Shown here piece after piece: positions 272 to 16,815 of a stretch of 64,000 bases of DNA. The DNA comes from Meridianimarinicoccus sp. MJW13. Lineage in GTDB: Bacteria; Pseudomonadota; Alphaproteobacteria; Rhodobacterales; Rhodobacteraceae. The notes under the pieces were generated by a model. It was not told the origin of the DNA and searched no databases. It saw only the letters and a program-made list of their open reading frames with translations. The stretch lies in assembly GCF_014901205.1 (NCBI RefSeq), contig NZ_JACNMU010000012.1, positions 1 through 64,000 of the forward strand. Reading direction: 5' to 3'. A program made the position numbers and the translations under genes. Every line of letters begins with the position of its first letter. Within the stretch, counting starts at the first letter, position 1.

Positions 272-369
272 GATCGACGCTGCCCTCGACCGCCGGCTGA
301 GCAAAGCCACGCCATTGTTGCCAGGTCACCGGACAGAGGTTCGTTGCAAGCGAAACAAAACCCGCTACA
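272..369 (+). other. Junction sequence between IS remnant and marR gene
   Basis: After the transposase similarity ends, a second frame stays open across the junction and reads IDAALDRRLSKATPL and on to a stop at the start of the marR gene. It could be the tail of another broken gene brought in by deletion. I do not recognise it. The stretch also carries the operator-like site at 343-356. Confidence 0.25.
343..356 (+). promoter_or_regulatory. Operator-like site before the marR gene
   Basis: GTTGCAAGCGAAAC lies 13 bases upstream of the marR ATG. It matches, at 12 of 14 positions, the site at 7096-7109 before the MBL/hydroxylase operon. Both follow the pattern GTTnCA..nGAAAC of an interrupted inverted repeat. 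I infer that the MarR protein binds here and controls its own synthesis. Confidence 0.45.
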
Positions 370-810
370 ATGTCTGGTGAAATGCAGCTAGATTCATTCT
401 TTCCATATCGTCTCGCCGTCGCTTCGGAAGCCTTCTCGCGGAAGCTTACCGAGGTCTACCAGCAGGGATTTGGCTTGTCGCGGGAAGAGTGGCGCCTTCT
501 GTTCCTGTTGGCCGATGCCCAGAACCTGACATCGCGGGAGCTTACCCAACGCACGACTCTCGACAAGGTGCAGGTCCATCGCGCTGCGCAGCGGCTGGAA
601 GACAAGGGTCTGATCACCCGTGCCATTTCTGAAGGCGACCGCCGTATCAGGGTCTACAGTTGCACGCCGGAGGGCCATCGGCTTTTCGATGAACTCCTGC
701 CGCAGGTCGAAGCCCGTGCGCAGGAAATGCTGATGTCCATGTCTGACGAGGATCGGGTGGCCCTCAACCGTGGTGTCTCTGCGCTTTTGAAGGCGGCAAC
801 CGGGTCTTGA
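370..810 (+). CDS. MarR-family transcriptional regulator
   Basis: A 146-residue DNA-binding protein of usual MarR length. A helix-turn-helix spans about residues 53-80 (LTSRELTQRTTL to LEDKGLI) and the beta wing carries the conserved EGDRRIRV at 88-95. MarR proteins act as dimers and usually release DNA on binding an aromatic or phenolic ligand. It sits convergent to the TRAP/hydroxylase operon, and matching 14-bp motifs lie before this gene and before that operon's first gene, so it is the likely regulator of that operon. No good ribosome binding site precedes the ATG; a start at 382 is possible. Confidence 0.85.
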   Translation: MSGEMQLDSFFPYRLAVASEAFSRKLTEVYQQGFGLSREEWRLLFLLADAQNLTSRELTQRTTLDKVQVHRAAQRLEDKGLITRAISEGDRRIRVYSCTPEGHRLFDELLPQVEARAQEMLMSMSDEDRVALNRGVSALLKAATGS

Positions 811-1257
811 CGTCCAGACAGTGAAGCCGCTGCCAGAAGGGGCTGTTACCGAAACCCGGCGATCAGGGTCTTACGTGCACGTGAGAGATTGGCACCTTGA
901 TGGCGGCCGACGCTTTCCGGGCAGTCCGGTCACCCTGCCAACCTCTTCGAAGGGGTTGCGCGGGACACTCCGGTTGATCTGATCGCGTTTCCAGGTCCTT
1001 GCCTTTGAACGCAGGATGCCGGTCGCGTTCCTGTCGGCAGGGATCAGGTTGCCACGCCGAATGGCGTCATTGATCCGGCAGCGGCGGTCCGGGGGATCGC
1101 TCTTGCGGGCTGGTTCCCACGTCGCTCGGTGCGCTTCATGTCAGGGAGGGGGCGGGCGAGGGTGCATTCCCCAGGGAGCAATTGTTCCCCTCGAGTTCCC
1201 TCGCGTGCAGCCAACCGGCGTGTTTCAGGCCCACCCTTTTGGGGGCAGTGCCAGAGT
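811..1257. other. Intergenic stretch, no gene recognised
   Basis: This stretch lies between the convergent marR and TRAP permease genes. The open frames here are short, arginine-rich and lack ribosome binding sites. I see no RNA gene or repeat. Confidence 0.5.
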
Positions 1258-1283
1258 GGCGGGGCAGACGGCGCTGCCCCGCC
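1258..1283 (-). terminator. Hairpin after the TRAP/hydroxylase operon
   Basis: A perfect 10-bp stem GGCGGGGCAG/CTGCCCCGCC with a 6-base loop lies 3 bases past the stop codon of the last operon gene. There is no clear T-run, so it may end transcription weakly or protect the 3' end. Confidence 0.5.
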
Positions 1284-1286
1284 GGT

Positions 1287-2603
1287 TCACATCAATCCCA
1301 CAAGCCAGAGCGAGAGCGACGGGATGAGGATGAGCAGCGCCAGCCGGATCACGTCGGCGATCCAGAAGGGGAACACCCCCTTGAAGATCGTGCCCAGCGA
1401 GACATCCTGCAGCACACCCTTCAGAACGAAGACGTTCATGCCGACGGGCGGCGTGATCAGGCTGATCTCGGTCGCCACGACGACGACGATGGCGAACCAG
1501 ATCAGGGCGTTCTCCGGGTCGAGCAACAACTCGTTGGCAAACTCCAGCTCGAACATCAGCGGGTAGAAGACCGGGACGGTGAGCAGGATCATCGACAGGC
1601 TTTCAAGCACGCAGCCAAGCACCATGTAGACCACGATGATAAAGGCGATCACCGCCCAGACCGGCAGTTGGTTGTCGAGCACGAAGCCCGAGAGCGCATC
1701 TGGCAAGCCGGCGAAGTTGATGAAGTTGGTGAAGAGCTCGGCACCGATGATGACCGCAAAGATCATCGCCGTGGCCCGGATCGAATCCAGCGTGGCGGAG
1801 AAGAACCCCGACCATGTCATCGTCCTGAGCGCCAGAGCGATCAGAACCGAAGCCCCCGCGCCCATGCCCGCGGCCTCGGTTGGCGTGAAGAAGCCACCGT
1901 AGATCCCGACCATGATGAAGATGAACAGGCCAAGCACACAGACGACCCCGATAACGTCATCCCGGCTCATCGGTTCGGTGCTTGCCTTTTCCGGCGCCAG
2001 GGCCGGGTTGATCCGAACCGCCACCAATACGGCGCCAAGATAGAGCAGCACTCCGATGATCCCCGGCACGATGCCGGCGATGAACAGCTTGGCGATATTG
2101 GTTTCCGTCAGCAGGCCATAGATGATCAGGATCACGGACGGCGGTATCAGGATGCCGAGCGTGCCGCCGGCGGCAATGGAGCCTGTGGCGAGACGATCAT
2201 CATATCCGAAACGGCGCATGGAAGGCATGGCCACCTTGGACATCGTCGCCGCCGTTGCCAGTGACGAGCCGCAGACCGCCGAAAAGCCACCGCAGGAGAA
2301 GACCGAGGCCATGGCCAGCCCGCCGCGAAACCGTCCAAAAAGCCGGTCGGCCCCGGCAAACAGGCCGTGCGCGACACCAGAACCCGCCAGGATGTTGCCC
2401 ATGAAGATGAAAAGCGGGATGACCGACAGGCTGTACGACAGGGTGGTGTCAAAGGCGACCTGTCCGGTCATGGCCCATGCAGGTTCCCAGCCGCGCATGA
2501 AGGCAAAGCCAAACCCGCCCACAGCCGCCATCGCGAAGGCAATCGGCACCCGCAGAAGGATGAGGCCAAGAAGTACGGCGAAACCGATCAGGGACTCGAT
2601 CAT
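1287..2603 (-). CDS. TRAP transporter large permease (DctM type)
   Basis: A 438-residue, very hydrophobic membrane protein of the DctM family, the sodium-coupled transport subunit of a tripartite ATP-independent periplasmic transporter. Glycine-rich segments such as GGTLGILIPPSVILI and ITPPVGMNVFVLKG are typical of the two repeated halves with re-entrant loops. It follows the small permease with a 4-base ATGA overlap, so the two are translationally coupled. It is the last gene of the operon that begins with the MBL-fold protein. The substrate is unknown; the hydroxylase in the operon suggests an aromatic or other organic acid. Confidence 0.92.
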   Translation of the reverse strand: MIESLIGFAVLLGLILLRVPIAFAMAAVGGFGFAFMRGWEPAWAMTGQVAFDTTLSYSLSVIPLFIFMGNILAGSGVAHGLFAGADRLFGRFRGGLAMASVFSCGGFSAVCGSSLATAATMSKVAMPSMRRFGYDDRLATGSIAAGGTLGILIPPSVILIIYGLLTETNIAKLFIAGIVPGIIGVLLYLGAVLVAVRINPALAPEKASTEPMSRDDVIGVVCVLGLFIFIMVGIYGGFFTPTEAAGMGAGASVLIALALRTMTWSGFFSATLDSIRATAMIFAVIIGAELFTNFINFAGLPDALSGFVLDNQLPVWAVIAFIIVVYMVLGCVLESLSMILLTVPVFYPLMFELEFANELLLDPENALIWFAIVVVVATEISLITPPVGMNVFVLKGVLQDVSLGTIFKGVFPFWIADVIRLALLILIPSLSLWLVGLM

Positions 2604-3151
2604 GGTGTCGCCTCCAGGTGGTCTTTGTCGGTATTGTGTTCGGGGGGCGGTTGCACGCCCCGCAGGAAGGCGATGAAGGCCGACACCATGCAGGAGGCCC
2701 CTGCAAGGTAGCCAAACGGCGCCAGCGGGATCTCGAGTGCGTTGCTCACCGCGCCGTCATGGGCCGCCCTGGCTGCGTGGGTAAACAGCCGCCAGGAAAA
2801 TGTGGCCAGAAGCGCCGCTGAAAACAGTCCGGCGAAGGCCGCAAGCAGGCGTTGCGCCTTGGCTCCCAGAACCATGTTCAGCAGGTCCACCTCGACGTGT
2901 TCGCGCCGTTCGGTGGTAAGCGGCAGCGCCAGGAACACAAGCGCCGCAAGCAGGATTTCGGTGAGTTCGAACGCGCCGGCCAGCGGCGCGTTGAAGAAGT
3001 AGCGCCCGACGACATCGGCGCAGGTGATCAGGATCAGGCTGAACAGGATCAGAGCAGCTCCGACGCCCAGTGACCTGTCGAGCAGCAGCCCGATATCCAG
3101 CCCCCCTTCTTCAGGGGGCCGGTCGGGGAAACGATGGCGAAGCCGCTCCAT
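2600..3151 (-). CDS. TRAP transporter small permease (DctQ type)
   Basis: A 183-residue protein with four predicted membrane helices, the usual DctQ layout. The segment CADVVGRYFFNAPLAGAFEL near residues 43-62 matches the conserved DctQ signature (VxxRYxFnxPLxwaxEl). It forms the membrane complex with DctM. It starts 3 bases after the stop of the binding-protein gene and overlaps the large permease gene by 4 bases. Confidence 0.9.
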   Translation of the reverse strand: MERLRHRFPDRPPEEGGLDIGLLLDRSLGVGAALILFSLILITCADVVGRYFFNAPLAGAFELTEILLAALVFLALPLTTERREHVEVDLLNMVLGAKAQRLLAAFAGLFSAALLATFSWRLFTHAARAAHDGAVSNALEIPLAPFGYLAGASCMVSAFIAFLRGVQPPPEHNTDKDHLEATP

Positions 3152-3154
3152 CGA

Positions 3155-4189
3155 TCAGAAGTCCACGCCGGCTTGTTTGCGCAGTTCGGCCAGGGCTGCT
3201 GTGCCGTCATAGCCATCCGCAGCGATTTCGTCGGACCAGGACTGTTCGTACTGGGCGGCAATCGACTTGATCCCGTCCAGAACCGCAGGCGGGGCTTCGT
3301 AGATTTCGATGCCGGCGTCCTGGATCTTGCTGATGGCCTTGTCGTCAGCGTTGTTCCAGGCTTCGCCGACCAGCTCGGCAAAGGCTTCGCCAGAGATCGC
3401 CTCGATCGCGGCCTGATCTTCCGGAGAGATTTCGGCCCATTTCTCGTCGTTGACCACCAGGAACCAGGTGGTGTTGTAGATGCCGCCCGGGACGGTCATG
3501 GAGTATTTCAGATCGTCGGTCAGTTTGAAGGCGGTCAGGGCTTCATAGGTGAAGGTCGCACCGTCGATCACCCCGCGCGACAGCTTCTCGTAGACTTCTC
3601 CCGAGGACATGAAAAGCGTGGTCGTCCCCAGGTCGGACATCATGTCAGAGATGTAGCCGCCGGGAACCCGGATCTTCAGACCGGCAAAGTCCTCGGGGGT
3701 TTCGATCTTGCGCGCGTTGTTGTGCAACACGCCGGGCCCGTGCACGAACAGGCCCAGAAGCTTGACGCCGTCATGTTCTTCCTGGGCGTTGAGCGGACCG
3801 GAATAAACGTTCCAGAAGGCTTTGGACCCGGCAACGGCGTCGTCTCCGATGAAGGAAAACTGGCCAATGCGGGACCGGCTGAAGCGATCGTCGGTGGTGA
3901 AGGAATGCAGGCCATAGGTGATGTCGGCGATGCCGTCCGCTGCCATGTCGTAATGCGTCGGCGGCGGCCCCATCGGCTTGGCCAGCACGCGGACCGTCAC
4001 GCGGCCGTCGGTAACTTCGCCCACCTGTTTGGCCCAGGGCTTGATGGCGTCCACGACGATGGGGTGGCGCGGCGGCAGCCAGCTGGACAGCGCCAGCGTG
4101 GTATCGGCAATGGCCATCGACGCAAACGACATGGTGACGCTGGCTGCGCCGGCGAGCAGCAGTGCTGTGCCTTTAAACTTGATTTTCAT
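3155..4189 (-). CDS. TRAP transporter substrate-binding protein (DctP type)
   Basis: A 344-residue periplasmic binding protein. An N-terminal signal peptide (MKIKFKGTALLLAGAASVTM and following) ends near AIA-DTT at about residue 29. The motif GLKIRVPGG near residue 170 carries the arginine that, in DctP proteins, pairs with the ligand carboxylate, so the substrate is probably an organic acid. It is preceded by a GGAGG-like ribosome binding site and lies directly behind the DUF2783 gene. The P-Q-M order is the standard TRAP order. Confidence 0.92.
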   Translation of the reverse strand: MKIKFKGTALLLAGAASVTMSFASMAIADTTLALSSWLPPRHPIVVDAIKPWAKQVGEVTDGRVTVRVLAKPMGPPPTHYDMAADGIADITYGLHSFTTDDRFSRSRIGQFSFIGDDAVAGSKAFWNVYSGPLNAQEEHDGVKLLGLFVHGPGVLHNNARKIETPEDFAGLKIRVPGGYISDMMSDLGTTTLFMSSGEVYEKLSRGVIDGATFTYEALTAFKLTDDLKYSMTVPGGIYNTTWFLVVNDEKWAEISPEDQAAIEAISGEAFAELVGEAWNNADDKAISKIQDAGIEIYEAPPAVLDGIKSIAAQYEQSWSDEIAADGYDGTAALAELRKQAGVDF

Positions 4190-4208
4190 GGTATCCTCCC
4201 TTGGTGTT

Positions 4209-4397
4209 TCAGATCTTGGCGGCAGCGAGAGCCTGGTTCAGGACCTCCCGGTCGCCGATGTGGTTGGCCAGTATCAGGATCAGCCGGGCGTTGATCGCAT
4301 CGCTCTCGGCCTTGTCCTTTCCTTCGTGGATCGCCAGCAGATCGGCATAGAAATCGTCGGTCCCGTCGATATTGGGGGTCAGGATCAAATCGCTCAT
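4209..4397 (-). CDS. DUF2783 small protein
   Basis: A 62-residue acidic helical protein (MSDLILTPNIDGTDDFYADL at the start). It matches the DUF2783 family, which is repeatedly found directly behind FAD monooxygenases of this type. No catalytic motif is visible. Its start overlaps the stop of the hydroxylase gene, so the two are probably translated together. It may be an accessory or stabilising subunit; that is inference from position only. Confidence 0.7.
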   Translation of the reverse strand: MSDLILTPNIDGTDDFYADLLAIHEGKDKAESDAINARLILILANHIGDREVLNQALAAAKI

Positions 4398-6028
4398 CAG
4401 ACGGACTCCTTTCCGGTGGCGCGGCGCAGCGCGGTGCGCATCAGGGCTTCGTTGAATTCGCTGCGGCGGGAGGCAACATGCTGATCGGGCCGGATCAGGT
4501 AGACCGCCGATGTGGCCTCGCCCAGATAGCGCTCCTTGAGTCGCCCCGACGGGTCGTCGCTGGCCGAAAGGGCAATCCGCCGCGCGGTGATGCCGTCTTC
4601 TTCCAGTGTTTCGGGCGCATCCGCGTCGATTGTCAGGATCACGAATTCATCGCCGAGCTTCGACAGCAGGAAGTCGTCGCCCAGGGGGGCATCCGGACAA
4701 GGGGCCCCGGGGCGTGTGCGCGACGGGCCACCCAACAGCGCGTCCGCAGAGTTGAGGCCTGATCCGTCATAGACACAAGGCACGCTGAGCCGACCGGAAT
4801 TGACCATTGGCCGGGCAAACGCATACTCCCTGCTCAGGCCCAGCACCGCATCCCGGAAAATCCGGCTGGTTTCGGTTTTCGGCGTGATGAAGTCGGTCGC
4901 GCGCGTGGAGTTCAGGATGTTCTCATCCGCTCCGTGGACCCGCTCAACGTCATAGCTGTCCAGAAGGCTTTCGGGAGCCTTGCCTTCGATCACAAGGCCC
5001 AGTTTCCAGCCGAGGTTGTCCACATCCTGCATGCCGGAGTTGGCACCCCGTGCCCCGAAGGGCGAAACCTGGTGCGCGGCGTCTCCGGCAAAAAGAACGC
5101 GGCCGGATCGGAAGCTGTCCATCCGCTTGCACTGGAACGTGTAGATCGAGGACCAGACCATCTCGTAATCGACATCGCCCAGCATCGCGTCCAGCCGGCG
5201 GCGGATGTTTTCCTCTTTCATTTCCTCCTTGCGGTCGACGTCCCAGCCGATCTGGAAGTCGATCCGCCAGACATCGTCGGGCTGTTTGTGCAGCAGCGCC
5301 GACGCGCCCGATCCGTGGCTGGGTTCGAACCAGAACCACCTTTCGGTCGGGAAGCGTTTTTCGCCCTTCAGCTTGATGTCGGCAATCAGGAAGCTGTCCT
5401 GAAACACGCGCCCGCTGAAGTCGAGGTCGAGCATCCCGCGCAGCGGCGAGCTTGCGCCGTCACAGCCGATCAGCCAGTCAGCCTCAAGGACATAGGGGCC
5501 GTCGGGTGTCATCACGGTCAGGACCACGTGGTCGTCCCGGACCTCTACCGCATCGACGCGGTTCTTGCCCCGCAGTTGGATCGGCGCACCCGCGGACTGA
5601 AGCTCGCGGGCCCGGTCAATCAGGAATTGCTCGAAATACGGCTGCTGCAGGTTGATGAAAGCGGGATACTGGTGACCCTCTTCCGGCAGCAGGTTGAATT
5701 CGAAAACCATGTCGTCGCGGTGGAACACCTTGCCAAGGTTCCAGACGACGCCCTTTTCCAGCATCGGTGTCCCGCAGCCATAGCGGTTCGAGATTTCCAG
5801 GCAACGCTTGGCAAAGCAGATTGCCCGGCTGCCCATGCCAATTCCTTCGTGATCGTCGAGCACCACGACAGGGATGCCCTGGCGACCGAGGTCAAGCGCG
5901 GTGGCCACGCCAATCGGACCGCCGCCCATGACCACGACCGGATGGCGCACTGGCGCCTCGGCATCCTGGTCGGGCGATCTCTCGTACGGATAGGCCTTGA
6001 AGGCCAGCTTGTATCTGTCATCAAACAT
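4397..6028 (-). CDS. FAD-dependent aromatic-ring-hydroxylase-like monooxygenase
   Basis: A 543-residue group A flavoprotein monooxygenase, close in plan to 3-(3-hydroxyphenyl)propionate hydroxylase (MhpA). The FAD-binding GGGPIG lies at 35-40, the DG motif GCDGASS at 188-194 and the second FAD motif GDAAH at 315-319. Such enzymes use NAD(P)H and O2 to hydroxylate phenolic rings. I chose the ATG at 6028 because GGAGGAGA lies 8 bases before it; the open frame extends upstream to 6073 into the preceding gene. The operon supplies a TRAP importer for its likely substrate. The exact substrate cannot be read from sequence. Confidence 0.85.
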   Translation of the reverse strand: MFDDRYKLAFKAYPYERSPDQDAEAPVRHPVVVMGGGPIGVATALDLGRQGIPVVVLDDHEGIGMGSRAICFAKRCLEISNRYGCGTPMLEKGVVWNLGKVFHRDDMVFEFNLLPEEGHQYPAFINLQQPYFEQFLIDRARELQSAGAPIQLRGKNRVDAVEVRDDHVVLTVMTPDGPYVLEADWLIGCDGASSPLRGMLDLDFSGRVFQDSFLIADIKLKGEKRFPTERWFWFEPSHGSGASALLHKQPDDVWRIDFQIGWDVDRKEEMKEENIRRRLDAMLGDVDYEMVWSSIYTFQCKRMDSFRSGRVLFAGDAAHQVSPFGARGANSGMQDVDNLGWKLGLVIEGKAPESLLDSYDVERVHGADENILNSTRATDFITPKTETSRIFRDAVLGLSREYAFARPMVNSGRLSVPCVYDGSGLNSADALLGGPSRTRPGAPCPDAPLGDDFLLSKLGDEFVILTIDADAPETLEEDGITARRIALSASDDPSGRLKERYLGEATSAVYLIRPDQHVASRRSEFNEALMRTALRRATGKESV

Positions 6029-6051
6029 GTCGGGTCTCCTCCCCTGACGTC

Positions 6052-7002
6052 TCAGCCCTGCAATTGTTCCCACATTTCTATGTCACGCTGCGCGGTCCAG
6101 ATGCGCGGCGTATCGATGCCCCGCGCTTCATCGTAGGCGCGGGCGACATTGAAGGGCAGGCAGTGCTCGTAGATTGCGTAGTCCGCGAATTTCGGATCGC
6201 AGGCGGCGCGCACCGCGTCCCATGCGTCCTTCAGGCTGCCACCGCGTGCGGCCACGCGGGCTGCGGGGCGATAGGTGCTCTCGACGAAATCGCGGGTGCT
6301 TTCGATCGCGGCATGGACCATTTCCTTGCCAACCAGCGCATCGCCGCGGCCCGGTGCAATGGCATCGACGTCGAAGCCGGCGATATTGTCCAGCGTGCCG
6401 CCCCAATCGTTGAAATGCCCGTCGCCACAGTAGCAGGCGGAGTGGTATTCGACGATGTCCCCGGTGAACATCACGTTCTGGTCCGGAACGTGAATGACGA
6501 TGTCACCGGCGGTATGCGCGCGCCCCAGATGCATCAGGTCCACGCGGCGGTTGCCTAGAAAGACCGACATCCTGTCCTTGAAGGTGGTGGTGGGCCAGGT
6601 CAGCCCTGGGATGCTCTCGTGTCCCTCGAACAGACGCGGGAAGCGCTGGAACTCGCTGTCCCAATCTTCCTTGCCGCGTTCAGCCACCATCGCGCGGGCC
6701 TTGTCCGACATGAGGACCTGGCTTGCCCCGTAGGCCGAAGCGCCAAGAACCCGCACGGCATGGTAATGCGTCAGGACCAGGTGAGAGATTGGCTTGTCCG
6801 TTACTTCGCGAACTTTTTCGATCACCTTGTTTGCCAGGCGCGGCGTCGCCTGTGCTTCGACGATCATCACGCTGTCATCGCCGATGATCACACCCGAGTT
6901 CGGGTCGCCTTCGGCGGTGAAGGCCCAGAGCCCGTCGCCCACTTCGGTAAAACTGATCGTTTTCTCTCCCAGGTCTCCCTGCGATGCGAATGCCTTTGCC
7001 AT
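6052..7002 (-). CDS. MBL-fold protein with only one intact metal site
   Basis: A 316-residue metallo-beta-lactamase-fold protein, first gene of the operon. The usual HxHxDH motif reads HYHAVR (79-84): the two leading histidines remain but Asp and His are Val and Arg. Motif 3 histidine (GRAHT, H163) and motif 4 aspartate (FTGD, D182) are present. The last ligand, normally PGHG, is PGRG (R219). So the site-1 ligands are kept and the site-2 set is lost. Start chosen at 7002, with GGAG upstream; an earlier ATG at 7071 would remove most of the promoter region. Its role is unknown, perhaps a hydrolase acting on the product of the adjacent hydroxylase. Confidence 0.85.
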   Translation of the reverse strand: MAKAFASQGDLGEKTISFTEVGDGLWAFTAEGDPNSGVIIGDDSVMIVEAQATPRLANKVIEKVREVTDKPISHLVLTHYHAVRVLGASAYGASQVLMSDKARAMVAERGKEDWDSEFQRFPRLFEGHESIPGLTWPTTTFKDRMSVFLGNRRVDLMHLGRAHTAGDIVIHVPDQNVMFTGDIVEYHSACYCGDGHFNDWGGTLDNIAGFDVDAIAPGRGDALVGKEMVHAAIESTRDFVESTYRPAARVAARGGSLKDAWDAVRAACDPKFADYAIYEHCLPFNVARAYDEARGIDTPRIWTAQRDIEMWEQLQG

Positions 7003-7074
7003 GTGTTTCTCCGTGGGTGCTTCGTTGTTCGGGGCAACGGAATGGGTGGGAACTTCGGCGTTACTCTTCACAAT

Positions 7075-7088
7075 GTTTCATATGAAAC
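7075..7088. promoter_or_regulatory. Perfect palindromic operator before the MBL/hydroxylase operon
   Basis: GTTTCATATGAAAC is a perfect 14-bp palindrome 72 bases upstream of the chosen MBL start. A second copy of the motif follows 21 bases further upstream, two helical turns away, and a third lies before the marR gene. The size and symmetry fit a MarR dimer site. Confidence 0.6.
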
Positions 7089-7095
7089 GTTTATC

Positions 7096-7109
7096 GTTGC
7101 AAATGAAAC
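7096..7109. promoter_or_regulatory. Second operator copy before the MBL/hydroxylase operon
   Basis: GTTGCAAATGAAAC is an imperfect copy of the palindrome at 7075-7088, with equivalent positions exactly 21 bp apart, so both sites face the same side of the helix. This spacing suits cooperative binding of two dimers. Confidence 0.5.
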
Positions 7110-7539
7110 GAAAGTCAAGGATGTCGCTCGCGCACCGTCAGTTCCCAAGAAAGGTCAGAATATCCAAATCTTTTCAAAAGGTCACAGATATTATCGTCCG
7201 GGGCCCTGCGCCGGGCCACGAAAAGAAGGGAATCGATGCGGCATATCGAACTGGCACAGGTGCGTCGAAGCATGGGCCAAACTGATCAGAGGCCGGCCAA
7301 ACCGGCCACGGCAAAGACCGACCGGTCCCCGCGATCCTGCTTTGGGTCTTCGAACGCCGGGGACGGACCGCGCCCGTGGGCGAGGGTCTTCAGGCCGCAG
7401 GCGGCACAGCGCAGCTCACCCCCCCGGGCAGACCGGCAGGGCGATGCACTCTTCGTCATCTTGGTCCCTGATGGGCGCGCAGGACGTCGCCCACGCTGTC
7501 GCAGGGTTGCCCTGAAAAAAACGCTGCGGTTGGCCCGGG

Positions 7540-8322
7540 TCAGTCGAAGGGGCTGTCGCGGCCCTGTGGGTGAACGTTTTCGTAGTATTCGGAGAGGGTC
7601 AGCGCGCCGGCAGCGGCTTCGTCAAGGATGATCGTGGCGCGGGCATGTAGTTGCAGTGCCGAGGCCGGGCAGGCTGCACTGAGCGGGCCTTCGACCATGC
7701 GGGCGACGGCATCGGCCTTGGCCTCTCCGGTGGCGAGCAACAGACAGGCCCGCGATGCAAGAATGGTGGCCACGCCCATGGTGATGGCGTAGCGCGGCGT
7801 TTCTTCGAAGGATGCGAAGTAACGCTGGTTGGCGCGGCGGGTGCTTGTTGTCAGCGTCTTGATCCGGGTGCGCGAGCCAAGGCTGGCCGTCGGTTCGTTG
7901 AAGCCGATATGCCCGTTGTGACCGATCCCGAGGAGTTGCAGATCAATGCCGCCCGCGGCCTCGATCAGGGCCTCGTAGTCCGCCGAGGCGGCCTGCGGAT
8001 CGGCGGCGTCCCCCTTGGGCAGATGGGTGCGCGTCGGGTCGATGTCGACCAGCCCGAAGAACGCCTCTTGCATGTAGCTGTGGTAGGAACAGGGGTGGTC
8101 CGGCGCCAGGCCGATGTACTCATCCAGGTTGAAGCTGGTGGTTTCGGCAAAGGACAGCCCGTCGTCACGGTGACGCTGGGCAAGGGCCTGATAGAGCGGC
8201 AGCATGGTGCCGCCGGTCGCCAGCCCCAGCACCGCGGCGGGCTTGGCTTGCACGGTGCGGGCGACCAGATCGGCGGCGCGTTGCATCGCGGCCTGTTCGT
8301 CAGGAAGGATCAGGACCTTCAT
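7540..8322 (-). CDS. nagB: Glucosamine-6-phosphate deaminase
   Basis: A 260-residue cytoplasmic enzyme that converts glucosamine-6-phosphate to fructose-6-phosphate and ammonia. The substrate loop ATGGTM lies at 35-40, the catalytic NLDEY at 65-69 and GHNGHIGFNEP at 134-144, with His138 and Glu143. The residue that is Asp141 in E. coli NagB is Asn here, as in the Bacillus-type enzymes. It is the last gene of the sialic acid operon and overlaps the kinase gene by 4 bases (ATGA). It completes entry of amino sugar carbon into glycolysis. Confidence 0.93.
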   Translation of the reverse strand: MKVLILPDEQAAMQRAADLVARTVQAKPAAVLGLATGGTMLPLYQALAQRHRDDGLSFAETTSFNLDEYIGLAPDHPCSYHSYMQEAFFGLVDIDPTRTHLPKGDAADPQAASADYEALIEAAGGIDLQLLGIGHNGHIGFNEPTASLGSRTRIKTLTTSTRRANQRYFASFEETPRYAITMGVATILASRACLLLATGEAKADAVARMVEGPLSAACPASALQLHARATIILDEAAAGALTLSEYYENVHPQGRDSPFD

Positions 8323-9227
8323 GGGTTTTCCTTTCCCAGGTGGGCAGCCAGCGCGCCAATCAGCGGCGCGTCATGGCCAAGTTCGGCAAGAACAAGGCGC
8401 GGGCGGAACAGTTCGGGTTCATCGCTCAGCACGCTGCGCATGCGTTCGATGTATCCGGGTGCAAGGCCGATGCTGCCGCCCATCGCCACCGTATCGAGGC
8501 CCAGAATAGCGGTCAGGTCACCGATCAGCGTGGCCACCGCGCGGGCCGAAGTGGCGACGATCCGGTCGGCCCAGTCCTGGCCTTCGGACGCGGCCAGGAA
8601 CACGGCGCGGGCATCGACGCCCTGGTGACCGGCGGCCGCCGCTGCGGCGGCAATACCGCGCCCGCCCGCGGTGCTTTCGACCGTTGCCATGCGGCCGCTG
8701 CCGCAGGGGCCGTTGGCGTGGCGGCTGGAAACGAACCCGACATGCCCCGCAAGGCCGTTTTCGCTTGAAACAAGGCGGTTGCCGATGACCAGCCCACCGC
8801 CAACCCCGGTCGAGACCGTGATGTAGGCAAAGCTGTCGCTGGTAGCGCCAGCGCCGAAAAGCCCTTCGGCAAAGGCGGCGGCTGCGGCGTCGTTCAGGCA
8901 GGTGGCGGCGCCAAGGGCGCGCACCAGTTCCTGTTCCAGCGGAAACCCGAGGATCGCGGGCAGTGTCCCGCTGTTGACCGCGTGCCAGGCCCCCGCGCGA
9001 TCGACCCGCCCGGTGACGGCAGCGCCAAGGGGCGCGCCCTTGCTGTGGCCCAACTGGTCCAGCAACGTGCGAATGGCGGCAATCTGAGCCTCGGGTCCGG
9101 CGGCGGGGTCAGTGGGGGCCAGAAGCCGCTCGACGACCTTGCCGTTTTCAATCCGGGCGGCGGCGATCTTGGTGCCGCCCAGATCGGCAGCGAACCCATT
9201 CAGGGCGTCGCGCTGAATGATCTTCAT
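8319..9227 (-). CDS. nanK: ROK-family N-acetylmannosamine kinase
   Basis: A 302-residue sugar kinase of the ROK family. The ATP-binding LGGTKIA is at about 17-23 and [11 protein letters not shown] marks the second phosphate loop. The position between nanE and nagB argues for phosphorylation of N-acetylmannosamine to its 6-phosphate. The zinc motif of many ROK kinases (CxCGxxGC) is reduced to GPCGSGR, with a single cysteine, so structural zinc may be absent. The gene overlaps both neighbours by 4 bases. An N-acetylglucosamine kinase is the main alternative. Confidence 0.85.
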
Positions 9228-9916
9228 GCCCGTTCCTCGATGGCCTGCGAAACGGCATCACGGAACCAGCCGGTGACATGCTCCAGCCGCGTCAGCGCGG
9301 TGCCGACCGTTACGGCGTCCGCCCCGGCGGCCATCGCCTGGGCGGCAAGCGCGGGCGTATTGGCCCGCCCCTCGGCCATGACAAAGCCGCCGAGGTCCCG
9401 GAATGCGCCGATCAACACCGTATCCAGGCCTTCGGTCCGGCCCGCGGTTTCGTCGGTATAGCCCGACAGGGTGGTGCCAAGGATCGCCGCGCCTTCGGAC
9501 AGGGCCCGCCGCCCGTCCGCAAGCGTAGAGCAATCGGCCATGGCCAGTGCGCCGGCCGCATGGATCGCGGCCAGGATCGCGGCGGTGGATTCCGGGCGAG
9601 GCCGGTCGGTGGCGTCATAGGCGATGATGTCGGCGCCTGCCTCGGCCAGGGCCCGGACATCCGCCAGATAGGGGGTGATGCGCACCGGGCTGTCGTCCAG
9701 GTCGCGCTTGAGGATGCCGATGATCGGTACCGAGACGCGCGGGCGCACCGCGGCCAGGTTTTCGACGCCTTCGATCCGCAGCCCGTCCGCCCCGCCTGCC
9801 ACGGCGGCAGCGGCCATGGCGGCGACGATATCGGGGTGGTCCATAGGTCCGTCATCGACAGGCTGACAGGAAACGACAAGGCCGCCGCGCAGGGTATCAA
9901 GCAGGGTCATGGTCAT
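9224..9916 (-). CDS. nanE: N-acetylmannosamine-6-phosphate 2-epimerase
   Basis: A 230-residue TIM-barrel enzyme of the NanE family, which interconverts N-acetylmannosamine-6-phosphate and N-acetylglucosamine-6-phosphate. Seen in sequence: the N-terminal [34 protein letters not shown] in the substrate-binding region, and [13 protein letters not shown], a strong family signature. It lies 1 base after the TRAP permease stop and overlaps nanK by 4 bases. The product would need NagA for deacetylation before NagB can act; no nagA is in this window. Confidence 0.93.
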
Positions 9917-9917
9917 G

Positions 9918-11192
9918 TCAGTCCATCAGGCTCGGCAGGCCGGTTGACAGGATCGGAAAGGCACAGACCAGGATCAGCACCACGAACGGCGGGATCAGCC
10001 AGGGCAGGATCGCCTTGGCAAGCCGCTGATACGGGATGCCCCCGACCTGTGCGACCACGAACAGGGCCATGCCCATGGGCGGCGTCAGGATCGAGATCAT
10101 CAGGTTCAGCACGGTGATGATGCCGAAGTGCACCGGGTCGATGCCAAAGCCCATGGCCACCGGCACCAGGATCGGCACAACCACCAGCAGGATCACCAGC
10201 GCCTCGATGAAGCAGCCCAGGAAGAAGATCATCACGTTGACGGCGATCAGGAAGGTGATCGGGCTGTCGGCGATGGACAGGAAGAACGTCGCGATCTGCT
10301 GCGGGGCCTGTTCACGCGCCATGATGAAGCTGAGCAACCCCACGCCCGCGACGATGGTGGCGATCGACGCCGATGTCGTGGTGGTTTCATAGATCGCATC
10401 CCACAGTTTGCGGAAGGTCAGCTCGCGGTAGAAGACCAGGTCGATCAGGATCGCGTAGAGGACGGTAATCGCCGCGGCTTCGGTGGGTGAGAACAGGCCG
10501 GAAAAGATGCCGCCGACGATGACCACGGGGGTCATCAGCGCGGGCAGGGATTTCACGAACAGCGTGCCGACCTCTCCGGCACTGCTGCGCGTGTCGGTGG
10601 GATAGTTGCGCTTGCGGGCGATGAACCAGACCATGACCATCAAGGCCGCCGCACACATGACGCCGGGAATGATGCCGCCAAGGAACAGTTTGCCGATGGA
10701 GACGTTGGCAATCACCCCATACAGAACCATGGTGATCGACGGTGGCACCAGCGGGCCGATCATCGACGATGCGGCGGTCACGGCCCCGGCGAAGTCATCG
10801 TCATAGCCGGCCTCGCGCATGGCCTCGATCTCCATCTTGCCCAGGCCGCCGGCGTCGGCCAGCGCCGAGCCGGACATGCCGGAAAAGAACAGTGATGCCA
10901 GCACGTTGACGTGACCCAGGCCGCCGGTGATATGGCCAACAAGCGACCGCGCAAAGCCGAAGAGATGGTTGGTGATCCCGGCAGAGTTCAGAACCCCCGC
11001 CGCGAGGATGAACAGCGGCACCGCCAAAAGCGGAAAGCTGTTCAGCCCGTCGGTCATGCGTTGCATGGCAAAGCTGATGCCCATGCCGGTGTAATAGAAA
11101 TACCCCATGGATACGAAGATCATGGCGACCCCGATGGGCACGCCGATCAGCACGAAGACCAGCCACAGGATTCCGACGATGGCAAGGATCAT
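9918..11192 (-). CDS. siaM: Sialic acid TRAP transporter large permease
   Basis: A 424-residue DctM-family permease with the typical paired hydrophobic repeats ([15 protein letters not shown] and [13 protein letters not shown]). It is the sodium-coupled translocation subunit. It overlaps the small permease gene by 4 bases and is followed by nanE, kinase and deaminase genes, which fits uptake of N-acetylneuraminate. In some bacteria SiaQ and SiaM are fused; here they are separate genes. Confidence 0.9.
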
Positions 11193-11668
11193 AGCGTGGG
11201 CTCCCGAGAGACGGTGACATTGCGGCGGCCCAGCAGGCGGCGGACAATCCGGTGAAAGATAAGGATGGCGGCAACCAGACCGGAAGCGTACAGCACCGCG
11301 TCAGTGGTCGGCAGGGTGACAGTGGTGTTGTCGGCGGTCCGCAGAACTGTCTTGTAGGCGATCCAGATGAGATGGCCGACGATTCCCAGGTAGATCAGGT
11401 CGATCACCGTATAGAGAACAAGGCGGGCGCGCGCGGGCAGCCGCTCGGCCAGAAACGCCATGCGCAACTGGCCGTCCTGGCGTTCGACCTCGGCGATGCC
11501 GATGAAGGCCATCCAGACCCAAAGCCAGCGTGCGGCTTCCTCTGTCCAGACGGGGCCACGAAACAACGGGGTGCGGCCAAAGACCTGGATCAGCACAACG
11601 CCGATCAGGACGATGAAGAACAAAGAGGCGACGATGCCTTCGATGCTGTACTTGCGCGGAGTCTTCAA
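11189..11668 (-). CDS. siaQ: Sialic acid TRAP transporter small permease
   Basis: A DctQ-family membrane protein with four helices (IEGIVASLFFIVLIGVVLI first) and the DctQ-like segment GPVWTEEAARWLWVWMAF. I place the start at a TTG codon at 11668, giving 159 residues: AGGGGGA lies 6 bases before it and the protein then begins with the conserved LKTPRKY segment. The upstream ATG at 11779 would add 37 poorly conserved-looking residues and overlap the binding-protein gene by 50 bases. Confidence 0.85.
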   Translation of the reverse strand: MKTPRKYSIEGIVASLFFIVLIGVVLIQVFGRTPLFRGPVWTEEAARWLWVWMAFIGIAEVERQDGQLRMAFLAERLPARARLVLYTVIDLIYLGIVGHLIWIAYKTVLRTADNTTVTLPTTDAVLYASGLVAAILIFHRIVRRLLGRRNVTVSREPTL

Positions 11669-11729
11669 CGGCTTTCCCCCTACAGGCAGATGAACTCTGC
11701 GGGCGCCAAAGCGCCCGCAGAGGGGTTGA

Positions 11730-12692
11730 TTACTCGCCGCGAACGCGGGCGATGGCGCCTTCGCCGAACTGCTCTTCAAGCGTGTCGTAGTACGGCTTCA
11801 TCGCAGCCCGGAACGGGGCCAGGTCAGGACGGGTGATGGTCAGGCCGCGCCCTTCGAACGTGGCGATCAGGTCGTTCTCGGCCTGTTCGGTCAGGCTGTT
11901 GTTCAACTCGCCACCGGCGGCCACCGCTTCGTTGAACCAGCCCTGTTCCTCGGCACTAAGGCTGTCCCACAGGTCGTCCGCAATCTGAACCGCAGCGGAT
12001 GCGATGAAGTGGTTGGTCATCGCCACATGCGACTGCACTTCATAGAACTTCATTGCCTCGATGGTGGGCAGCGGGTTCTCTTCGGCGTCAACCTGGTTGG
12101 TCTGAAGCGCCAGGTAGACTTCTGCGAAGGCGACCGGGGCGGGGGTGGCGCCGACGTTCTCGGCATAGGCAATCAGGAACGGAACGTTGGGTGTGCGCAG
12201 CCGCAGGCCCGCCATGTCATCGATGGATTCGATGGCCCGGTTCGACGTGGTCTGACGGGTGCCGTAGTACCACACGTCCAGCAGGTGAACGCCCTTGTCC
12301 TCGAACTTCGCCGCCATCTCCTGACCCCACGGGCCGGCGATGATTTCCTTGAGGTGGGCGAAATCATCGGCAACATACGGCGCGCCGATCAGGTTCAGTT
12401 CCGGAATGATATAGCTCATGTCGGGATAGCCGGTGATGACCATGTCCAACTCGCCCGCCTGAAGCTGAGCAACCATCGATTTGAAGTCGCCGAGGGTCGA
12501 AGAGGGGAACAGTTTCACGGTCATTTCGCCGCCCGAGACTTCTTCCAGCTTGCTGGCGAATTCCTGAGCGCCCTTGTAGACGTTCGAGCTTTCGTTGTCC
12601 TGCAGGCCGAATGTCAACGTGCGTTCGGCCATGGCCGGGGCGGCCAATGCCAGGGTCGCCGCGCAGGCAAGCAAAGTGGTCTTAAGTTTCAT
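11730..12692 (-). CDS. siaP: Sialic acid TRAP binding protein (SiaP type)
   Basis: A 320-residue periplasmic protein with a cleavable signal ending at about residue 22 (APAMA-ERTL). It resembles SiaP closely in the ligand region: GLRLRTPNVPFLIAY followed by FAEVYLALQTNQVDAEENPL, then KFYEVQSHVAMTNH. In SiaP these segments hold the arginines and asparagine that bind sialic acid. It is the first structural gene of the minus-strand nan operon, with a good GGAGG site, and directly follows the GntR gene. Confidence 0.92.
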   Translation of the reverse strand: MKLKTTLLACAATLALAAPAMAERTLTFGLQDNESSNVYKGAQEFASKLEEVSGGEMTVKLFPSSTLGDFKSMVAQLQAGELDMVITGYPDMSYIIPELNLIGAPYVADDFAHLKEIIAGPWGQEMAAKFEDKGVHLLDVWYYGTRQTTSNRAIESIDDMAGLRLRTPNVPFLIAYAENVGATPAPVAFAEVYLALQTNQVDAEENPLPTIEAMKFYEVQSHVAMTNHFIASAAVQIADDLWDSLSAEEQGWFNEAVAAGGELNNSLTEQAENDLIATFEGRGLTITRPDLAPFRAAMKPYYDTLEEQFGEGAIARVRGE

Positions 12693-15921: not shown

Positions 15922-16815
15922 CTATGCGTCTTTGGATGATACCGCCGGTATCACCTCTATACGGCGATAGGGCGCGACGAATCCGGCCTTGCGCAGGGCT
16001 TCGTCCACAAGGGTAAAGACCTCGTCCCGGCAATCGATGTCACGGTCGAAGCGGGACAGCCAATAGCGCAGCGCATAGGTGATCCCCCCTTCCTCATAGG
16101 CCAGAACCCGAACGTCCGGCGCAGGGTCCTGCTGGATGAGTTCCGCGGCTTCCAGGGCCGCCAGCATCACTTCGCGGGCGCGTGCGATCGACACGCTGTG
16201 GTCGAGCGTGATGCTGACCTGGGCGCGGTACTTCGGCTTTGGTGCGGAATAGTTGGTGATGCGCTGGCGCGCGATCTGGCTGTTGGGCAGGATCACATAG
16301 GCAGCATCGCGGGTCAGAAGACGCGTGGTGCGCCAGCCGATCTCGATCACCTTGCCACGGGCCAACCCTTCGATGTCGACCCAGTCGCCGATGCGAAACG
16401 GCCCCTCAACGCCCAGGGCAATCCCGGACAGCGTGTCGGCGACGACGTTTCGAATGGCGAAACCCAGCAGGGCCAGCACAAGGCCGGACCCCGCCAGCGC
16501 TCCGACCGCGCCTTGCCCCATGAAATGCGAGGTGGTCGCGACAAAGGCGGCCAGAAACATCAGGGCCGCCACCATGTCCTTGAGGAGGCGCGGGTAGGGA
16601 CGACGCCGCACCGCCGCCTGGTCGAAGGCCAGTCCCGCGATACGGCTGACCAGCCAGGCCGCCGCGAAATACGCCAGCGCGGTGACGGCAAGCGTCACGG
16701 TCTCGCTGGTTCCGAAAACCACGGCCACCCGCGCCGGAAACAGCAACAGACCCAGGCTGACAACCGCCAGAATGACGGGCCAGAGTAGTCGGCGGATGTG
16801 ATGCATCACGGTCAT
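15922..16815 (-). CDS. MscS-family mechanosensitive channel
   Basis: A 297-residue small-conductance mechanosensitive channel. Three membrane helices occupy the first 140 residues; the pore helix region has the glycine/alanine pattern GQGAVGALAGSGLVLALLGF. The MscS beta domain follows (GPFRIGDWVDIEGLARGKVIEI). These channels release solutes under osmotic downshock. I placed the start at 16815, just before the first membrane helix; the frame is open further upstream to 16998, but that part is a low-complexity Arg/Pro-rich sequence. Confidence 0.85.
   Translation of the reverse strand: MTVMHHIRRLLWPVILAVVSLGLLLFPARVAVVFGTSETVTLAVTALAYFAAAWLVSRIAGLAFDQAAVRRRPYPRLLKDMVAALMFLAAFVATTSHFMGQGAVGALAGSGLVLALLGFAIRNVVADTLSGIALGVEGPFRIGDWVDIEGLARGKVIEIGWRTTRLLTRDAAYVILPNSQIARQRITNYSAPKPKYRAQVSITLDHSVSIARAREVMLAALEAAELIQQDPAPDVRVLAYEEGGITYALRYWLSRFDRDIDCRDEVFTLVDEALRKAGFVAPYRRIEVIPAVSSKDA

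Follow-up and report, generated by a model that had tools for sequence, protein, structure and literature searches.

The first 64,000 nucleotides of contig NZ_JACNMU010000012.1 of Meridianimarinicoccus sp. MJW13 (forward strand, hereafter the window) carry a MarR-family regulator gene, marR1, and, convergent with it, an operon for an MBL-fold metallo-hydrolase, an FAD-dependent hydroxylase, a DUF2783 protein and a tripartite ATP-independent periplasmic (TRAP) transporter. Three related sites, one in front of marR1 and two in front of the MBL gene, are very probably the operators of this MarR protein (MarR1), at its own gene and at an operon with a predicted role in the uptake and hydroxylation of an aromatic acid. 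These sites belong to an 18-bp palindrome, TCGTTKCANNTGMAACGA, which is also found elsewhere in the genome on contig C19, beside a second marR gene (marR2) and the genes for homogentisate breakdown. The explanation that best accounts for these observations jointly, and that we regard as probable, is that TCGTTKCANNTGMAACGA is the operator of MarR repressors of a homogentisate-type regulon, with the control by MarR1, the effector and the pathway included in that estimate. The sites, their conservation, their geometry and their linkage to hmg genes were all computed here. The main features of the locus are as follows.

341..358, + strand: predicted marR1 operator, TCGTTGCAAGCGAAACAA; two mismatches to the 18-mer; a site stands before marR1 in 12 of 12 close relatives
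382..810, + strand: marR1, MarR-family regulator; Pfam MarR_2 58.1 bits (cut-off 27) and MarR 42.4 bits (cut-off 24.6)
1287..2603, - strand: dctM-like large TRAP permease; Pfam DctM 290.7 bits
2600..3151, - strand: dctQ-like small TRAP permease; Pfam DctQ 85.8 bits
3155..4189, - strand: dctP-like TRAP solute-binding protein; Pfam DctP 121.8 bits
4209..4397, - strand: DUF2783 protein of 62 residues, proposed MhaB-like coupling protein; Pfam DUF2783 91.3 bits, size comparable to MhaB
4397..6028, - strand: FAD-dependent aromatic hydroxylase of 543 residues, proposed MhaA-like (3-hydroxyphenylacetate to homogentisate); NCBIfam PRK08132, Pfam FAD_binding_3, hmg linkage in relatives
6052..7002, - strand: MBL-fold metallo-hydrolase, first gene of the operon; Pfam Lactamase_B 47.3 bits
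7073..7090, no strand assigned: predicted MBL-promoter operator 2, core GTTTCATATGAAAC at 7075-7088; covers the expected transcription start
7090..7118, - strand: putative MBL promoter, TTGACT (7118-7113), 17-nt spacer, GATAAA (7095-7090); TTGAC in 13 of 13 aligned promoters
7094..7111, no strand assigned: predicted MBL-promoter operator 1, TCGTTGCAAATGAAACGA; no mismatches to the 18-mer; 14-bp core in the -35/-10 spacer

The three 14-mers from which the original prediction started are present as described, namely GTTGCAAGCGAAAC at 343-356, GTTTCATATGAAAC at 7075-7088 and GTTGCAAATGAAAC at 7096-7109; GTTTCATATGAAAC is a perfect palindrome as claimed, and its distance to GTTGCAAATGAAAC is 21 bp from start to start. 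Pattern GTTNCANNNGAAAC gives five strand matches at four places in the window, against an average of 0.07 and never more than 2 in 100 dinucleotide shuffles, the fourth place (8933-8946) being located within the open reading frame (ORF) 8319-9227. Scanning the window for the perfect palindrome with up to three mismatches reveals no excess (two matches, and at least as many in 18 of the 100 shuffles). Therefore, the palindrome alone weighs little, and it is the family of sites that carries the weight.

A scan of the whole genome, which had been proposed as a check with occurrence at many unrelated sites counting against the idea, gives a divided answer. The loose 14-mer consensus is indeed unspecific, with 19 strand matches at 15 places (nine strand matches when the pattern is read backwards), three of these places being GTTTCACGTGAAAC sites on contig C2. 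The wider 18-mer, which was derived from the sites of relatives together with those on C19, is specific: up to two mismatches, only four places are found in 4,018,212 bases (4.02-Mb genome), two at the window locus (C4:7094 with no mismatch and C4:341 with two) and two on C19 (C19:178470 with none and C19:178423 with one). At three mismatches 20 further places appear, including C4:7073, while the backwards control has 12 places with up to three mismatches. Among the one-mismatch places elsewhere in the genome (C14:208443, C19:74206, C18:259872, C16:138095 and C20:81242), only C14:208443 recurs in the 18-mer search, with three mismatches. The 14-mer core alone has matches in 143 of 149 genomes of the family, GTTTCACGTGAAAC places included, among the matches listed, so that its mere presence in a genome is uninformative; from this comparison only places near MarR genes were taken further.

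The two places on C19 lie between marR2, whose product is 30% identical to MarR1, and a VOC-hmgA-maiA-fahA gene set. The last three of these genes score above their curated NCBIfam cut-offs, with hmgA at 631 bits (cut-off 510.75), maiA at 258.6 bits (171.05) and the fumarylacetoacetase gene fahA at 500.7 bits (375.3). Thus the same operator sequence stands at the genome's own homogentisate genes. No match to 4-hydroxyphenylpyruvate dioxygenase (HPPD, TIGR01263) is found in the genome at an E value of 0.001; control searches give a match in eight of 14 genomes and one over the cut-off in only one of 14, so absence of HPPD is not rare. Among seven genomes of the genus, only this one matches both the hydroxylase and hmgA at the limits used, and in the six others (one of them only 74% complete) neither MarR1 nor hmgA nor the hydroxylase is matched at those limits. 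This pattern fits a joint gain of both halves of the putative pathway.

Conservation was followed in relatives by a contig search with the MBL protein, from which the best 80 of at least 545 confirmed stretches, with up to 10 kb on each side, were taken as loci. In 77 of the 80, the stretch with MBL also has matches to the FAD protein and to DUF2783. HmgA is matched in 52 loci, HmgA or FahA in 65, and at least one of HmgA, FahA, MaiA and VOC in 74, where the MaiA matches may include other glutathione transferases. A close orthologue of MarR1 (more than 60% identity) is present in 12 loci. As in the window, it is convergent and lies past the cluster's 3' end; in these relatives it comes after the TRAP genes and then VOC, HmgA, MaiA or FahA genes. 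Comparison of the intergenic regions, also proposed earlier, reveals sites before both genes in all 12; counting those with up to one mismatch, every locus has two or more in front of MBL and one or more in front of marR1. Together with the convergent position of marR1, this conservation supports the predicted arrangement of an autoregulated MarR controlling the MBL-hydroxylase-DUF2783-TRAP operon from its far end. The original prediction lacked the second MarR paralogue sharing the operator on C19, the true start codon of marR1 and the metabolic sense of the operon.

Over all 80 loci (1,530,327 bases) the core GTTKCANNTGMAAC has 40 exact matches, compared to 0-2 in each of ten shuffles and none backwards. 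Nearly all of these (39 of 40), and 38 of the 55 matches with one mismatch, are close to the start of a match to one of the 12 query genes, at most 400 bp upstream of it or 30 bp beyond it. Sixteen of the 80 loci have a MarR2-type gene divergent from MBL, and within 300 bp upstream of MBL 15 of these 16 have a core site with at most one mismatch, the remaining one (L051) having two mismatches. Clusters borne on plasmids occur in Tropicibacter, Paracoccus, Dinoroseobacter and Loktanella; in Serratia, a conjugative plasmid carries two marR genes with hmgA-fahA-maiA. Core sites with up to one mismatch are present in four of these five, the Loktanella stretch, which begins inside hmgA, having none; no core site is found in a Sphaerotilus cluster with an IclR regulator. 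On plasmid pDSHI02 of Dinoroseobacter shibae DFL 12 the MBL-FAD-DUF2783 and hmgA-fahA cluster, which includes a MarR gene, adjoins paa phenylacetate genes. In loci L034-L113 the MBL protein is 85-94% identical while the neighbouring FAD hydroxylase is 44-88% identical, a difference which the choice of loci by MBL may partly explain.

The 80 loci, eight further ones, C19 and the window together yielded 84 MarR-like proteins. Grouping them by the words of their recognition helices places 21 in a MarR1 group, 25 in a MarR2 group and 32 in a MarR3 group and leaves six ungrouped. Each group falls on one side of a tree branch (support 100/99, 95/84 and 94/89), in a tree limited by its few columns. 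Upstream sites, counted up to a distance of 300 bp and with no more than one mismatch, are present at 22 of the 25 MarR2-group genes (all except L051, L211 and L214), at 15 of the 21 MarR1-group genes (the window, the 12 close relatives and two of eight distant ones) and at one of the six ungrouped genes (L111, one mismatch). None of the 31 MarR3-group genes with an HKTK helix has such a site; instead, 30 of these 31 loci have a site like TAGTTACAAAATCAACTA, a distinct and strongly conserved palindrome seen in 36 of the 80 loci (for example L059:7278 and L042:7202), six of them outside the HKTK loci. The TAGTTACAAAATCAACTA pattern was drawn up after its sites had been viewed. The sole MarR3-group protein with EKTK, L082, comes from a locus with GTTKCANNTGMAAC sites. 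This joint change of operator and helix is the strongest computed hint that the MarR proteins may bind these sites.

The start of marR1 is ATG 382, as alignment of 13 sequences with the conserved N-terminus MQLDSFFPYRL reveals; ATG 370, which the ORF tool had given, is not conserved in relatives. The promoters of marR1 and MBL described here are predicted from the sequence. The marR1 operator overlaps the first hexamer of a promoter-like TTGCAA-16-TACAAT (344-371), one of two promoter-like sites reported by an automatic scan, a total close to the shuffled mean of 1.1. The same scan missed the MBL promoter because GATAAA fails its last-base rule. In the putative MBL promoter, the spacer (7112-7096) contains one core (7109-7096), and the second core (7088-7075) starts 2 nt past the -10 element and lies over the expected start. 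The aligned MBL promoters of the window and the 12 relatives share the order TTGAC(A/T), operator, GATA- or GACA-like -10 element, operator, with the first operator copy degenerate in L036. These positions have the layout expected for a repressor that would block RNA polymerase.

The following scheme would combine these features. A MarR1 dimer would bind one site over the -35 element of its own promoter and the two sites at the MBL promoter, which, being 21 bp or about two helical turns apart, would present the same face of the DNA, and would thereby repress both marR1 and the MBL-hydroxylase-DUF2783-TRAP operon. MarR1 would be released by an aromatic acid, for which 3-hydroxyphenylacetate (3-HPA) and homogentisate are the likeliest candidates. 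The TRAP transporter would import the acid, the MhaAB-like FAD protein and the DUF2783 protein would hydroxylate it to homogentisate, and the products of hmgA-maiA-fahA on C19, under the same operator and MarR2, would break the ring. Binding, sign of control, effector and substrate in this scheme are what we infer from the computed features. The operon is best read as an MhaAB-type two-component hydroxylase with a TRAP importer feeding the C19 genes. The pair consists of the hydroxylase (543 residues, 734.4 bits against PRK08132, cut-off 416) and, side by side with it, the DUF2783 protein of 62 residues; the lack of any HPPD match, like the hmg linkage, points indirectly to a possible 3-HPA to homogentisate activity. 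We further suggest, tentatively and at somewhat short of even odds, that two MarR paralogues of about 30% identity, with helices LDKVQV and LEKPRV, read one 18-bp operator while a third, sister group with MHKTKI, at equivalent gene clusters, has TAGTTACAAAATCAACTA. The two readers would stand at the two halves of the pathway (uptake and hydroxylation on one side, ring cleavage on the other), and the pathway, split between two loci, would stay one regulon by virtue of the shared operator and may answer two ligands, the substrate and the intermediate.

The nearest printed idea, and the only direct parallel in the literature searched, is HmgS, a MarR protein predicted from three genomes and six sites to regulate hmgAB in Alteromonadales and Pseudoalteromonadales (PMC5343134). 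HmgS, as presented in the accessible sections of that paper, is like the window system in its MarR family, its homogentisate genes and its origin in comparative genomics, but it is gammaproteobacterial, and the comparison is one of descriptions, not of motif or sequence (PMC5343134). Those sections describe no alphaproteobacterial MarR regulon of homogentisate genes, no hydroxylase/TRAP genes and not this operator (PMC5343134). Among the papers listed by literature searches on MarR with homogentisate or hydroxyphenylacetate genes, none was seen to describe a MarR operator of this roseobacter cluster. For the hydroxylase, PMC3053370 describes MhaAB of Pseudomonas putida U, a 3-HPA 6-hydroxylase made of a 566-residue flavoprotein and a 60-residue coupling protein, which makes homogentisate. 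It also gives the proposed MhaAB of Burkholderia xenovorans LB400 (560 and 60 residues) beside hmg genes, and names HmgR, an IclR repressor, as the regulator of the hmg genes in P. putida U (PMC3053370). As far as these descriptions go, the window pair resembles MhaAB in joining a flavoprotein of about 560 residues to a small protein of about 60, with the LB400 pair standing beside hmg genes, and differs in its own lengths (543 and 62 residues) and in the company of an MBL-fold gene and a TRAP importer. DUF2783 is mentioned in a single paper of the literature searched, where a VOC-FAD-DUF2783 operon of Bradyrhizobium diazoefficiens is reported as lowered in an nnrR mutant. The Neisseria regulator NadR, whose structures 5aip and 5aiq match MarR1 by sequence (E=1.2e-6), binds 4-hydroxyphenylacetate and, more weakly, 3-HPA (PMC4841544). 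NadR and HpaR are, like MarR1, MarR regulators, in their case in hydroxyphenylacetate biology, but they are distant in sequence and have other target genes. MarR1 scores below the cut-off of the HpaR model (TIGR02337, 45.1 bits against 121.2). MarR1 shows the marks of its family, being a winged-helix protein with a palindrome at its own and its target promoter, kept in all 12 close relatives, and the system would work in the way common among MarR repressors of catabolic operons.

Several observations weigh against control by MarR1 of a homogentisate-type operon. Six of the eight distant MarR1 genes lack an upstream site of their own (up to one mismatch, 300 bp); some of the six sit inside the operon or just downstream of it. 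The window MarR1 helix, DKVQVHRA, has a His where the other 20 members of the group have Ser (19) or Thr (one), and the window marR1 operator has CG in its second half-site where all 12 close relatives have TG; given both changes, the window MarR1 may bind weakly or differently. The site at 7073-7090, whose three mismatches are all in outer bases, does not stand out from background when the genome is searched with the 18-mer. Because the relatives form taxonomic clusters, their sites do not count as independent. The assignment to MhaAB draws on protein size, family and linkage and not on an alignment with the MhaA or MhaB sequences.

One alternative is that the sites are real but are used at the window operon by the C19 paralogue MarR2, MarR1 being redundant or decaying after acquisition and rearrangement. 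The close fit of the sites at the MarR2 locus (no and one mismatch), the unusual His and deviant operator of MarR1, and the VOC relic and transposase fragment beside marR1 speak in its favour, as does the MarR2-type gene divergent from MBL, with core sites before MBL, in 16 of 80 loci. On the other side, marR1 is an intact ORF with up to 83% identity to its orthologues, and the 12 close MarR1 loci keep their sites with no MarR2-group gene on the stretch, the rest of those genomes not having been searched. We consider this alternative unlikely, although MarR2 may control the window operon, alone or jointly with MarR1, and MarR1 may share or may even have lost this control. It is quite improbable that the regulators are activators, or have a dual role, acting from upstream sites. 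A site just upstream of a TTGAC element is indeed seen in the MarR2-type MBL promoters of L051, L053, L057 and L058 and on C19, but the window and its 12 close relatives have theirs inside the -35/-10 spacer and across the expected start, and a dimer bound at these positions should keep RNA polymerase out.

Two further explanations were rejected as extremely improbable. Centromere sites of the parS type have half-sites GTTTCA..TGAAAC, and three GTTTCACGTGAAAC places on C2, which we take to be parS, fit the loose 14-mer; such GTTTCACGTGAAAC places occur in many genomes of the family, among the matches listed. The window cores GTTTCATATGAAAC, GTTGCAAATGAAAC and GTTGCAAGCGAAAC differ from the GTTTCACGTGAAAC core in their centres and in their place in the genome, two of the three have GTTGCA half-sites, which the C2 sites lack, and in relatives sites of the window kind stand at marR, MBL and hmg promoters. 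The C2 sites themselves are at 16470, 18369 and 18663, and in genomes of the family such sites are often paired about 1.9 kb apart, among the matches listed. Chance likeness of short palindromes could draw on the 15 genome places of the loose pattern and on the lack of excess of the perfect palindrome in the window, but it is contradicted by the shuffles, by the specificity of the 18-mer in the genome and by conservation at exact promoter positions in relatives.

Three smaller features flank marR1 and the end of the operon.

185-391, + strand: ORF starting like an insertion sequence transposase OrfA; Pfam HTH_Tnp_1 over residues 2-30; at the contig start, beside marR1
1184..1225, - strand: relic of a VOC-family gene (last codons), KHAGWLHARELE against KHADWLHAKELN in relatives; blastn best E=7.9e-4, tblastn E=0.017
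1258-1283, - strand: perfect 10-bp GC-rich stem-loop directly past the dctM stop codon; no T run, z = -1.68

In 11 of the 12 close MarR1 relatives VOC and then MaiA follow dctM, some having FahA as well, and L036 has HmgA-MaiA-FahA instead. In view of the VOC relic and the transposase fragment, the window operon has probably been cut back, with the later pathway steps supplied from C19. The stem-loop after dctM, although stable, was rejected as a terminator because it lacks a T run and its z is only -1.68. Beyond the MBL promoter, ORFs at 7540-12692 on the - strand resemble, by eye, nagB, a ROK kinase, NanE and a second TRAP transporter and may form an operon for amino sugars or sialic acid.

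What is proposed here is ordinary bacterial gene control and overturns no current view. It would give a testable operator and regulator to a roseobacter cluster that is annotated, in the records consulted, only as an FAD-dependent oxidoreductase and a DUF2783 protein, and it suggests DUF2783 as the coupling protein of an MhaAB-type hydroxylase. The three natural pairings of helix and operator may serve as material on how MarR specificity changes. For a genome with no match to HPPD, the operon would offer a source of homogentisate.

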